Program-made: the position numbers and the translations under genes
The notes under the pieces: model-generated
Told to the model about the DNA's origin: nothing
Databases searched by the model: none
Seen by the model: the letters and a program-made list of their open reading frames with translations, nothing else
Part shown: positions 36,347 through 40,423 of the stretch, in pieces
Layout: each line of letters opens with the position of its first letter
Position numbering within the stretch: the stretch's first letter is position 1
Source: Pseudooceanicola endophyticus
Lineage (GTDB): Bacteria > Pseudomonadota > Alphaproteobacteria > Rhodobacterales > Rhodobacteraceae
Direction of reading: 5' to 3'
Length of the DNA: 64,000 bases
NCBI RefSeq assembly: GCF_018760365.1
Contig: NZ_JAHIAB010000005.1
Span: forward strand, 186,001-250,000

Positions 36347-38692
36347 TCAGCCCCGCTCCACGAAGGGCGGCGGATCGAAGACGGAAACTTCGGGCAGGGG
36401 GGCGTCGAAACCTTCGACCTCGACCAGGCAGGAATGCGCGGAGGGGCCCTGGCCCAGCTTCGAGGTGCCCCGGTCGGCGGTCAGCACGTTGGGGTTGCCC
36501 TGCCGGTCAAGCGGCCCGCCATTGCTGGAGGCGCCGACCGGCTCCGGGTCGAACCAGGCACCGGTGGCCAGCTGCACGACGCCCCGCAGCAGCCCCTCCT
36601 CCAGTGCGAGCGAGGCCAGGCAGGCGCCCCGATCATTGAAGACTCGCACGATATCGCCCTCGGCCAGCCCGCGTTCAGCGGCATCTTGGGGATGCATCCG
36701 CATCACCTCGCGGCCCTGCCGCTTGGCCGCGCGCGAGGTGCCGGTGTGGTCGTACTGGCTGTGCAGCTTGGTTTTCGGCTGGTTCGACATCAGGTGCAGC
36801 GGGAAGCGGCGCGCGGCCTCGGCCCCCAGCCATTCCTGCGGCGGCAGCCAGCTCGGGTGCGGGGGGCAGTCGTCGTAGCCGAAGCCCTCGATCTTCTCGG
36901 AATACAGCTGGATCTTGCCCGAAGGGGTGGTCAGCCTGGCCGCCACCGGATCCTCGCGGAAGGCCTTCAGCAGATCGGCCTCGCGCGCTTCGGGCACCTC
37001 GGGCAGCATCATCAGATCGCCGGTCCAGAAGTCGTCGAAGGCGGGCAGGGTGACACCGGCGGCAGCGGCGGTCCTGGTGCCCTGGGCATAGAGGTGACGC
37101 AGCCAGCCTTCCACGTCGCGCCCCTCGGTGAAGGGCTCGGCGGCGCCAAGGCGCTCGGCCAGGGCGGTGAAGATCGCGAAATCGTCGCGGGCCTCGGCAT
37201 GGGGGGCGCTGATCGCATGCGAGGGCGACAGGAAGCGGTCGTTCGAGGAAAACGCGATGTCGTTGCGCTCAAGCTGGGTGGTCGCCGGGAAGACGATATC
37301 GCCGTGGCGCGCCAACGCGTTCCAGAAGTGATCATGGACGATGATCGTCTCGGGGCGCTGCCAGGCGTCGCGCAGGCGGTTCAGGTCCTGGTGATGGTGG
37401 AACGGGTTGCCGCCGGCCCAGTAGACCAGCTTCAGATCCGGATAGGTCCGGTCCTCTCCGTCGAAGGTGTAGGGGGCGCCGGGATGCAGCAGCGCATCGG
37501 CGATGCGGGCGACGGGGATGTAGTCCTTCACCGGGTTGACCCGCTGCGGCAGCGCCGGGAAGGCGAAGGCGGCCTTGGGGTTGCCGATGCCGTTGACCGA
37601 GGCATAGCCGAAGCCGAAGCCGCCGCCGGGCAGGCCGATCTGGCCCAGCATCGCCGCAAGGGCAATCGCCATCCAGTAGGGCTGTTCACCGCCATCGGCG
37701 CGTTGCAGCGACCAGGCCATCATCAGGAAACTGCGGGTGCCGGCCATGTCGCGGGCCAGATCGCGGATCGTCTGCGCCGGCACGCCGGTGATTTCGGCGG
37801 CCCATTCGGGGGTCTTCGCGGTGCCGTCGGAGGCGCCGGTGACATAGGCCTCCAGCCGGTCGGCGCCATGGGTGTGGCTGGCCAGGAAGGCGCGGTCCGC
37901 GCGCCCCGTCGCCAGCAGCTCATGCGCCATCCCGAGCATCAGCGCGGTATCGGTGTTCGGGCGCAGCGGGATCCATTCGACCCCCTCGACGATGGTGTCA
38001 TCGCGGATCGGAGAGACCGAGATCATTCGCGCGCCCCGCTCGCGCAGCGCGGCCAGGTTCTCGTTCACGATATGGCGGGCGATGCCGCCCGATCCGACCT
38101 GGGCGTTGCGCGCGGGCACGCCGCCGAACATCACCAGCGTCTCGGTCTGCTCGGCGATGCGCGGCCAGGAGGTATGGTGCGTCGACAGGCCCCGGCGGGT
38201 GCCGATGACATGGGGCAGGATCATGTCGGCGGCGGCATAGCTGTAGTTCTGAACCGAACGGGTATAGCCGCCGATGCAGTTCAGAAAGCGGTGGATCTGG
38301 CTTTGCGCATGGTGGAACCGCCCGGCCGAGCCCCAGCCGTAGGAGCCGCCGTAGATCGCGCCGTTGCCGTAGCTTTGGCGCACCCGGTCCAGCTCGGAGG
38401 CGGCAAGGTCCAGTGCCTCGTCCCAGGGCAGTTCCACGAAGGGTTCATAGCCGCGGCCCGCGCCCTCGGTCTCGATCCGACCGGCTTCGCGCGCCGCCAG
38501 GAAAGAGGCGCGCACGGCGGGGCGGCAGATCCGCGCCGGGGCATCCAGCGCCGCGATCATCCCCTCGGCCAGCGGCGAGGGGTCGGGGTCGATGCCCACC
38601 GGGTCCAGCCGCACGGGCCGGCCCTTTTCCATGACAGCGTTGTAGCTGCCCCAGTGGGTAACGATGCGCGGCTGTTTCGGCTGGTCCAGCAT
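36347..38692 (-). CDS. Molybdopterin oxidoreductase, BisC/TorA family (second copy)
   Basis: This 781-residue enzyme is a paralogue of the one at 7.9-10.1 kb and shares YGWGSAGRFHH and GGNPFHHHQDLNRL. The Mo-ligand serine is in VQNYSYAAAD. It has a longer, more complete N-terminus (THWGSYNAV...) and no signal peptide or Fe-S motif, so it should be a cytoplasmic sulfoxide or N-oxide reductase. It converges with mobA, 15 bases away. Its 5' region holds the two tandem RNA hairpins described separately, which could belong to its leader. Confidence 0.87.
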   Translation of the reverse strand: MLDQPKQPRIVTHWGSYNAVMEKGRPVRLDPVGIDPDPSPLAEGMIAALDAPARICRPAVRASFLAAREAGRIETEGAGRGYEPFVELPWDEALDLAASELDRVRQSYGNGAIYGGSYGWGSAGRFHHAQSQIHRFLNCIGGYTRSVQNYSYAAADMILPHVIGTRRGLSTHHTSWPRIAEQTETLVMFGGVPARNAQVGSGGIARHIVNENLAALRERGARMISVSPIRDDTIVEGVEWIPLRPNTDTALMLGMAHELLATGRADRAFLASHTHGADRLEAYVTGASDGTAKTPEWAAEITGVPAQTIRDLARDMAGTRSFLMMAWSLQRADGGEQPYWMAIALAAMLGQIGLPGGGFGFGYASVNGIGNPKAAFAFPALPQRVNPVKDYIPVARIADALLHPGAPYTFDGEDRTYPDLKLVYWAGGNPFHHHQDLNRLRDAWQRPETIIVHDHFWNALARHGDIVFPATTQLERNDIAFSSNDRFLSPSHAISAPHAEARDDFAIFTALAERLGAAEPFTEGRDVEGWLRHLYAQGTRTAAAAGVTLPAFDDFWTGDLMMLPEVPEAREADLLKAFREDPVAARLTTPSGKIQLYSEKIEGFGYDDCPPHPSWLPPQEWLGAEAARRFPLHLMSNQPKTKLHSQYDHTGTSRAAKRQGREVMRMHPQDAAERGLAEGDIVRVFNDRGACLASLALEEGLLRGVVQLATGAWFDPEPVGASSNGGPLDRQGNPNVLTADRGTSKLGQGPSAHSCLVEVEGFDAPLPEVSVFDPPPFVERG

Positions 38693-38845
38693 GACGGGTC
38701 CCGGAGGTCAGAATGGTGTTGATCGCGACAGAATATATCTGCCCGTGCAATTGCAAGGCCCGGCGGTGGCTGCCCCGGCGCAAAGGCGTCTTCACGGGCC
38801 AGCGGCCTGTCGATCCGTTCATCATCGGGGAAGGGTGAGAGGATT

Positions 38846-38944
38846 GCGGCGACCCCAGGGAGGAGGAGAGGGGCCGCCGCCAATTTCCGGGTCTCAGGGA
38901 GGAGGAGGAGACCCAGGAAACTCTCCGGCGCTTCTCAGCGCCAC
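38846..38944 (-). ncRNA. Tandem anti-Shine-Dalgarno (cuckoo/CcsR-like) RNA hairpins
   Basis: On the minus strand two stem-loops expose the anti-ribosome-site motif CCTCCTCCC in the loop. The first has GGGTCTC/GAGACCC arms (38914-38908 and 38895-38889). The second has GCGGCGGCCCC/GGGGTCGCCGC arms (38880-38870 and 38856-38846). The second stem pairs fully only on the minus strand, where the one non-Watson-Crick position is T-G. A third hairpin, GGCGCT-GAGA-AGCGCC (38942-38927), would start the transcript. Cuckoo RNAs of Rhodobacterales carry this motif in a loop and often occur in tandem. No clear terminator was seen, so they may lie in the leader of the molybdoenzyme gene. Confidence 0.65.
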
Positions 38945-38950
38945 AAGAAA

Positions 38951-38979
38951 GATATAGCGGATGCTGCGGTGCAGAACAA
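38951..38979 (-). promoter_or_regulatory. Promoter candidate for the tandem RNA hairpins
   Basis: On the minus strand TTGTTC (38979-38974), 17 bases, TATATC (38956-38951) would start transcription near 38944, just before the first hairpin. The rest of the 423-base gap (38693-39115) holds a possible weak second promoter near 38740 and no gene. Confidence 0.5.
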
Positions 38980-39115
38980 TCGCATTGGCGGCAGATCCGC
39001 CATGCTGTCAGCGCATGGCGGGTTAACAGAGCCATGCATCAGACGGGTTCGCATTTCCCGCGCCAGGGCTTAGGAAGGGCGGGCCGGGATGCGCCGGCAT
39101 GGGAAGGAACCTGGG

Positions 39116-40423
39116 ATGAGCGATCTGTTCGACGCGGCCCCCCGCGAGGGGCATGAACCGCTGGCCTCCGTGCTGCGGCCCAAGACGCTGGATGACGTGA
39201 TCGGGCAAAGCGCCATCGTGCGGCCCGGTTCGATCCTGCGGCGGCGGATCGCGGCGGGCGCGCTTGGCAGCATCATCCTTTACGGCCCGCCGGGGGTCGG
39301 CAAGACCTCGATCGCGCGGGCGGTGGGCAACATGCTGGGCAAGGAATTCTGCCAGCTTCATGCCACCCGCGCCACCGTGGCCGAGCTGAGGAAGCTTTCC
39401 GACGAGGCGCGCATCCGCCCGCTGCTGATCTTCGTGGACGAGATCCACCGCTTTTCCTCGACCCAGGCCGACGACCTGCTGGCGATCTGCGAGAACGGCA
39501 CCGCCGATTTCATCGGCGCCACCACCGGCAATCCCTACCACGCGCTGACGCCCGCGCTGGTGTCGCGCTCGACCATCCTGCAGCTTGAGCCGATCACGCT
39601 GGAGGAGATGGAGGAGGTGGTGCGCCGGGGCCTTGCGCATCTTCAGGGGCAGGGGATCGGCGTCACCATGACGCCCGAGCAGATCCGGCTGATCGCCGGG
39701 CGCTCCGGAGGCGACGCGCGCCGGGCGCTGACAACGCTGGAAAGCCTGGCAGTCGGCCATGACGGCCCGGTCGAGATCACCGAGGAGATGCTGGAAGAGG
39801 CCTATGCCTCGGCGGCGGTGAACCATGACCGTTCCGGGGATCAGCATTACGACATCGTCTCGGCCTTTGTGAAGTCGATGCGCGGTTCGGATGCCGATGC
39901 GACGCTCTACTGGCTGGCGCGGATGATCCATGCCGGCGAGGATCCCCGCTATATCGCGCGCCGCATCATGATCCATGCATCGGAGGACGTCGGGCTGGCC
40001 GACAATACCGCGCTGCAAACGGCGGTGGCCGCCGCCACGGCGGTCGAGAAGATCGGCTATCCGGAGGCGCGCATCATCCTGGCCCATGCGGCGCTGCATG
40101 TGGCGCGGGCGCCGAAATCCAATTCCGCCTGCCGGGGCATCGGGCTGGCGCTGTCGGCAGTGACGCAGGAGCGCCCGGCGCTGGTGCCCAAGCACCTGCG
40201 CGATGCCCATTACAAGGGCGCCGAGGCGCTTGGCCACAAGGGCTATCGCTTCCCCCACGACGACCCGCGCGGCTGGGTCGAACAGGATTACGTCACGGGC
40301 CTTGAGCCGGGCCGCTTCTACCAGAGCGACGCCCGCGATGCCGGCACGTTCGAGAAACGCGCCGACAGTTTCTGGGAACAGGTGCACGGTCAGCCCGCAC
40401 CGCGCCGCTTTCCGAAGGACTAG
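39116..40423 (+). CDS. rarA: Replication-associated recombination ATPase RarA (MgsA)
   Basis: This 435-residue AAA+ protein has Walker A GPPGVGKTS (from residue 57), Walker B LLIFVDEIHRF and the RarA/WHIP segment GATTGNPYHALTPALVSRS. The tetramerisation domain follows (SAFVKSMRGSDADATLYWLARMI). RarA acts at stalled replication forks with RecA and SSB. It is normally chromosomal, so its presence on a repABC replicon hints at a chromid or a second copy. GGAAGGA precedes the ATG. Its TAG interlocks with the stop of the converging gene. Confidence 0.93.
   Translation: MSDLFDAAPREGHEPLASVLRPKTLDDVIGQSAIVRPGSILRRRIAAGALGSIILYGPPGVGKTSIARAVGNMLGKEFCQLHATRATVAELRKLSDEARIRPLLIFVDEIHRFSSTQADDLLAICENGTADFIGATTGNPYHALTPALVSRSTILQLEPITLEEMEEVVRRGLAHLQGQGIGVTMTPEQIRLIAGRSGGDARRALTTLESLAVGHDGPVEITEEMLEEAYASAAVNHDRSGDQHYDIVSAFVKSMRGSDADATLYWLARMIHAGEDPRYIARRIMIHASEDVGLADNTALQTAVAAATAVEKIGYPEARIILAHAALHVARAPKSNSACRGIGLALSAVTQERPALVPKHLRDAHYKGAEALGHKGYRFPHDDPRGWVEQDYVTGLEPGRFYQSDARDAGTFEKRADSFWEQVHGQPAPRRFPKD

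Follow-up and report, generated by a model that had tools for sequence, protein, structure and literature searches.

Does the pair of hairpins on the minus strand of this stretch belong to a small RNA (sRNA) gene in its own right, or is it part of the leader of the molybdoenzyme gene next to it? The window, by which we mean the whole stretch of 64,000 nt from Pseudooceanicola endophyticus, provides the coordinates used throughout, and the element under study lies on its minus strand. It comprises a leading hairpin (H0) and two hairpins (H1 and H2) with the anti-Shine-Dalgarno (anti-SD) motif CUCCUCCC in their loops. We conclude with good confidence that it is a stand-alone ('orphan') gene for a trans-acting, anti-SD sRNA of the cuckoo family under LysR-type control. 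The RNA is most likely a Rhodobacterales variant standing between the CcsR RNAs of Rhodobacter sphaeroides and NfeR1 of Sinorhizobium meliloti.

Fold and family assignment of the hairpin pair

On the plus strand, the 13-mer CAGGGAGGAGGAG is found at 38856 and again 39 bases on, at 38895. When folded, the minus strand from 38944 to 38845 yields three predicted hairpins with −56.3 kcal/mol (z −4.37), which was matched by none of 200 shuffles. The plus-strand fold reaches −47.0 (z −1.45) and is equalled by 17 of 200 shuffles. Since the minus-strand fold beats its shuffles and the H2 stem carries a 1x1 mismatch when folded as plus strand, the strand assignment holds. The initial annotation had described two minus-strand hairpins with a repeated loop motif, the second of which pairs fully only on that strand, and both statements are borne out.

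As adjacent hairpins with CCUCCUCCC loops, H1 and H2 agree with the definition of the cuckoo family applied here, namely two to four adjacent hairpins with CCUCCUCCC in each loop (based in part on PMC3927594). Covariance-model comparison, proposed in the initial annotation as a check, matched the pair to the full length of the CcsR1 model (RF02791) with an E-value of 4.2e-14, but at 60.5 bits the match stays below the gathering score of 65.3. The match to ar14 (RF02344) has 51.2 bits (E 4e-8, gathering score 58.8) and leaves the third hairpin of the model unmatched. Within the window, all Rfam families stayed below their gathering scores. The CcsR1 cut-off is reached by none of 22 genomes of the genus, not even by those with DUF1127-linked arrays; failure of such arrays led us to drop the gathering threshold as proof of non-membership.

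The doublet CTCCTCCC-N15-60-CTCCTCCC has 12 matches genome-wide (one of them, on contig C1, is absent from the CcsR1 matches, and the doublet on C4 is counted twice), compared to one match with the reversed-pattern control. Together with the E-value of the CcsR1 match, this indicates that the pair is not a chance occurrence. Of 14 control genomes, 8 gave weak CcsR1 matches (E ≤ 1), all under the cut-off, and one gave matches at E ≤ 0.001; hence, only strong matches were counted.

Upstream plan and occurrence of orphan loci

A 9-bp perfect inverted repeat, CCGCCATGC-N7-GCATGGCGG, precedes the hairpins. Its T-N11-A core at 39003–39015 is centred at about −65 relative to a putative transcription start near 38944. 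The promoter TTGTTC-17-TATATC of the initial annotation is present in between (Table 1), and the spacer of 17 nt is also found in sibling loci. The consensus ATGCN7GCAWGGC matches the genome 15 times, at 13 distinct sites, compared to four times for the reversed control, and the six cuckoo loci of the genome have six of the 13 distinct sites upstream.

Five of these loci are dispersed solo doublets in the 5.2-Mb genome (46 contigs): the window copy (C42) and copies on C7, C4, C46 and C12 (at 30k). The sixth, at 140k on C12, is a cluster of six hairpins that comes after the gene of a 70-amino-acid protein assigned to DUF1127 by Pfam (E 8e-13), and is for this reason the canonical arrangement of DUF1127 gene plus array. 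The copies on C4 and C46 share 94% identity across 308 bp, from box to tail; in the remainder of the 3-kb stretches, BLAST matches were confined to 40 bp (E 0.008) and to the repeated loops. Downstream of the C7 copy lies a hairpin that looks like a terminator (GCGACC-TTCG-GGTCGC-TTTTTT); none was found at the window copy.

Searching 394 genomes of the family with the pattern TTTCC..CTCCTCCC..GGAAA yielded 23 matches in 16 genomes (reversed control: 3). Twelve are orphans in five genomes, four directly follow a DUF1127-like frame (G272, G225, G067 and G033; judged from the translation rather than by Pfam scan), and seven without a second hairpin were taken as chance. Model R1 matched in 52 of 90 family genomes and at separate places in four (G000, G109, G113 and G115), counts that are lower bounds under the stricter filters applied; the separate-place hits added two orphans, in G109 and G113. 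A crude motif scan detected no DUF1127-like frame at loci L160 and L164.

Related sequences are also carried by plasmids. When 38830–39030 was compared by BLAST with 72,556 plasmids, 20 records matched (11 from Thioclava, four from Salipiger, three from Alloyangia and one each from Qingshengfaniella and Haematobacter), 12 of which were studied with their surroundings. None of the 20 matches overlaps an annotated feature in the gene table, which is without RNA genes. Near the 12 studied relatives, the incomplete table lists no gene named DUF1127; three short hypothetical proteins are found there. Both exact CTCCTCCC loops are kept in 11 of the 12, and the remaining one differs by a single base in one loop; as the BLAST query included the loops, this sample is biased toward conserved ones. 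Within that limit, the loop variation that the initial annotation would have taken as refutation was confined to this one base. Altogether, 24 of 25 orphan loci contain the exact doublet.

Setting aside the Qingshengfaniella plasmid locus (identical to that of G115 in the stretch shown) and that of Thioclava GXIMD4215 p5 (no exact doublet) leaves 23 distinct orphans. In 19 of these, the same upstream plan recurs: an ATG-N9-CA box, TTG or TGG at 37–38 nt from the box start, a 17-nt spacer and a hexamer with A at position 2. Dinucleotide shuffles predict 0.08 such loci for the full ATG-N9-CA box with spacing and 0.46 for ATGC with spacing. Of the 23, 21 form a leading hairpin with 5 bp or more, compared to 7.65 expected from shuffles. 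Since the orphan loci share descent, these tests gauge the departure from chance sequence and not independent events. The evidence for H0 comes from the orphan set and not from the window, because 72% of the shuffles of the H0 stretch at the window locus also form a hairpin of this kind.

In 11 individual folds, the innermost four pairs of H0 show three to five pair types each, a count made fold by fold without shuffle or phylogenetic control, the MAFFT alignment of H0 across genera being poor. Stems vary while loops stay, as is typical of the cuckoo family, judging by the pair types in these 11 orphans (chosen by a pattern that fixes the loop and the outer H1 stem) and by the loops of the plasmid relatives. 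The H0 loops of the window and its siblings are frequently GNRA-like (GAGA, GCGA, GCAA) on differing stems, hinting at a selected cap.

CcsR1 is matched at E ≤ 0.001 in all 22 genus genomes, mostly as one array of tandem doublets. DUF1127 was confirmed by Pfam at two array loci, and similar reading frames lie upstream elsewhere. An ATGC-N7-GCA box precedes the array in 20 of the 21 loci with upstream sequence (the 22nd has none), and under a strict pattern the −35 element lies at the expected distance from the box in 11 of the 21. At L128 (G000:C23:266028), where the genome of the window has another DUF1127 gene, an ATGC-N7-GCATGGCGGG box and a CTATCT −10 element stand ahead of a 70-amino-acid protein matching Pfam DUF1127 (E 2e-8), which suggests that one LysR-type regulon may cover both DUF1127 genes and cuckoo RNAs.

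Doublets standing alone, with box and promoter but of a different stem type, were also found in five sister genomes (G016, G010, G007, G012 and G006), one or more in each. They are located on contigs of 6 to 140 kb, have no DUF1127 gene between promoter and hairpins, and may be more numerous, as at most 127 candidates were scored per genome. Two of the four that were scanned pass the gathering score of ar14 with 68.9 bits; the others score 53.5 and 48.4. The two that pass, L165 (G016:C24) and L166 (G010:C18), are near-alike loci in two sister species. Their third hairpin, with a T-rich run behind it, may also serve as terminator. One of the two sits on a contig of 6.2 kb that could be a plasmid or a repeat. 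L170–L172 are not doublets. L170 (G007:C1:686900) is a single CUCCUCCC-loop hairpin that directly follows an Ala/Lys-rich reading frame and precedes a terminator-like hairpin, and may be a one-hairpin relative or chance.

Comparison with known systems and alternative readings

With CcsR1–4 (RF02791) and DUF1127-linked cuckoo ('CIN1') loci, the window locus shares two CUCCUCCC-loop hairpins with variable stems. The CcsRs of R. sphaeroides are described as acting in stress defence and C1 metabolism and as being cut from the transcript of the DUF1127 gene ccaF1 (PMC10253847, PMC8625941, PMC8307010). In contrast, the window locus has its anti-SD hairpins as one doublet with an additional hairpin on the 5' side, is preceded by its own promoter and LysR-type box, and lacks the co-transcription downstream of a DUF1127 gene that characterises CcsR1: with approximately 80 nt from box to H1, there is not enough space for such a gene. 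Dependence on RpoHI/RpoHII, induction by stress and processing by RNase E are further characteristics of CcsR1.

Stand-alone organisation, multiple copies and anti-SD loops are shared with NfeR1/ar14 (RF02344) of the Rhizobiales, as far as described in PMC10746234 and PMC7143759. For NfeR1 of S. meliloti, the LysR-type regulator LsrB is reported to bind TGCA-N6-GCAT (T-N11-A) at −72 to −60 and to activate a sigma-70 promoter, CTTAGAC-N17-CTATAT (PMC10746234). The window likewise features CTATAT at −10, a 17-nt spacer and a T-N11-A motif near −65, so that at the level of sequence it has the box position of ar14, approximately −72 to −60 of a sigma-70 promoter. It differs from ar14 in the number of anti-SD loops, as all three hairpins of ar14 bear the motif and at the window locus only H1 and H2 do. 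SmelA075 and SmelA099 of the Rhizobiales resemble the locus in having several dispersed copies per genome, on different replicons and with CCUCCUCCC loops (PMC3927594), but have three or four anti-SD hairpins instead of two and a plain leading one. Dispersed multi-copy anti-SD sRNAs are thus on record for the Rhizobiales (PMC3927594, PMC7143759). DUF1127-less copies with a leading hairpin were not found for Rhodobacterales at the level of titles and abstracts; a 2015 paper on the cuckoo family may list such loci. The leading third hairpin, the missing DUF1127 gene and the lack of an obvious terminator had been pointed out in the initial annotation, and its term 'new arrangement' is fair, as the extra hairpin and the missing DUF1127 gene recur among the stand-alone copies.

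By analogy with these relatives, a LysR-type regulator of the LsrB/VtlR kind would bind the inverted repeat and recruit RNA polymerase to the −35 and −10 elements. The transcript would start near 38944 and extend over about 100 nt or more. H0 would cap and protect its 5' end, in place of the DUF1127 reading frame, and the CUCCUCCC loops of H1 and H2 would pair with Shine-Dalgarno sequences of target mRNAs, thereby blocking translation.

Several observations weigh against an orphan sRNA gene. A generic sigma-70 promoter scan of 38600–39120 did not call TTGTTC-17-TATATC, and a terminator scan of the same region found none, which makes read-through into the reductase gene possible. Both Rfam scores are under the curated cut-offs. 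Four of the 23 distinct orphans lack the exact plan from box to promoter: G317a and Haematobacter, in which the box lies about 11–12 nt further up, and two Thioclava loci. By precedent of NfeR1, the window copy could also be silent, since transcription was detected for only one of the six copies in S. meliloti under the conditions used (PMC7143759).

This last point, together with the multiple copies and a promoter plan like that of DUF1127 arrays, would also fit a decaying duplicate of a DUF1127-cuckoo locus that has lost expression or function. We consider such decay improbable, as the window copy retains its box, the promoter spacing, the pairing of H0 and both loops, while the stems differ among copies. 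That the RNA acts as a decoy, titrating an RNA-binding protein (Hfq, for example, or the DUF1127 protein CcaF1) or another sRNA partner instead of repressing mRNAs, also has little probability in our judgement. CcaF1 of R. sphaeroides is reported to bind RNA and to participate in CcsR maturation (PMC10253847), and a DUF1127 array locus is retained beside five DUF1127-less copies in the same genome. However, mRNA pairing explains the loop conservation at least equally well and, for NfeR1, was tested with reporters, its anti-SD loops silencing ntrB, among other mRNAs, at the translation initiation region; moreover, NfeR1 is described as Hfq-independent (PMC10746234).

As an alternative, the initial annotation offered a leader element of the downstream reductase gene, which is of the BisC family. 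Such a 5' leader would act in cis on translation or readthrough. The gene is on the same strand as the hairpins, its start codon follows about 150 nt beyond H2, and no terminator was found between them. Nevertheless, the doublet pattern is present in none of 67 loci holding reductase relatives (some incomplete upstream), and in 9 of 12 plasmid relatives the next downstream gene listed in the incomplete gene table is on the opposite strand. No GAGG or GGAGG precedes the start, as set by the open reading frame caller, within 28 bases. A leader function is therefore very unlikely.

Taking the locus as an orphan cuckoo gene, we also considered that such genes are self-contained units of about 300 bp (LysR box, promoter, cap hairpin and two anti-SD hairpins) that copy and move among chromosomes and plasmids of Rhodobacterales, a proposal that we regard as doubtful. 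If true, each new unit would add to the dosage of a single global anti-SD signal, controlled by a LysR-type regulator common to all units and no longer tied to the DUF1127 protein that governs the parental locus. A similar promoter plan joins two groups of sRNAs that are usually kept apart, CcsR in Rhodobacterales and NfeR1/ar14 in Rhizobiales. It makes joint control of DUF1127 genes and cuckoo RNAs by an LsrB/VtlR-type regulator a testable question outside the Rhizobiales, and the orphan plan defines, in searchable terms, a class left without annotation at all 20 plasmid matches in a gene table without RNA genes.

Features of the locus and neighbouring genes

Table 1 Positions of the predicted elements and of the neighbouring genes in the window
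Feature	Position	Strand	Basis
Candidate LysR-type T-N11-A box, 9-bp perfect inverted repeat	38997..39021	−	sequence
Candidate −35 element TTGTTC	38974..38979	−	sequence
Candidate −10 element TATATC, 17-nt spacer	38951..38956	−	sequence; spacer of 17 also in siblings
H0, leading hairpin, GAGA loop, no anti-SD motif	38926..38943	−	fold
H1, first CUCCUCCC-loop hairpin, stem UUUCC..GGAAA	38882..38922	−	fold; Rfam CcsR1 positions 1–83
H2, second CUCCUCCC-loop hairpin, stem GCGGC..GCCGC	38846..38880	−	fold; Rfam CcsR1
BisC-family molybdopterin S/N-oxide reductase, downstream neighbour, outside the element	36347..38692	−	NCBIfam bisC_fam; Pfam
RarA/MgsA-type AAA+ ATPase, divergent neighbour, outside the element	39089..40423	+	Pfam MgsA_C PF12002

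The reductase matches bisC_fam with an E-value of 2e-282 and 938.9 bits, which is under the curated cut-off of 1017.55, and has Pfam matches to PF00384, PF01568 and PF18364. At the RarA locus of G021, no CTCCTCC motif occurs in the 420 bases around and above the gene start. For a RarA/MgsA-type gene, which is widespread, it is odd that just 2 of the 22 genus genomes gave a match at E ≤ 1e-100, and this may be an artefact of the search.
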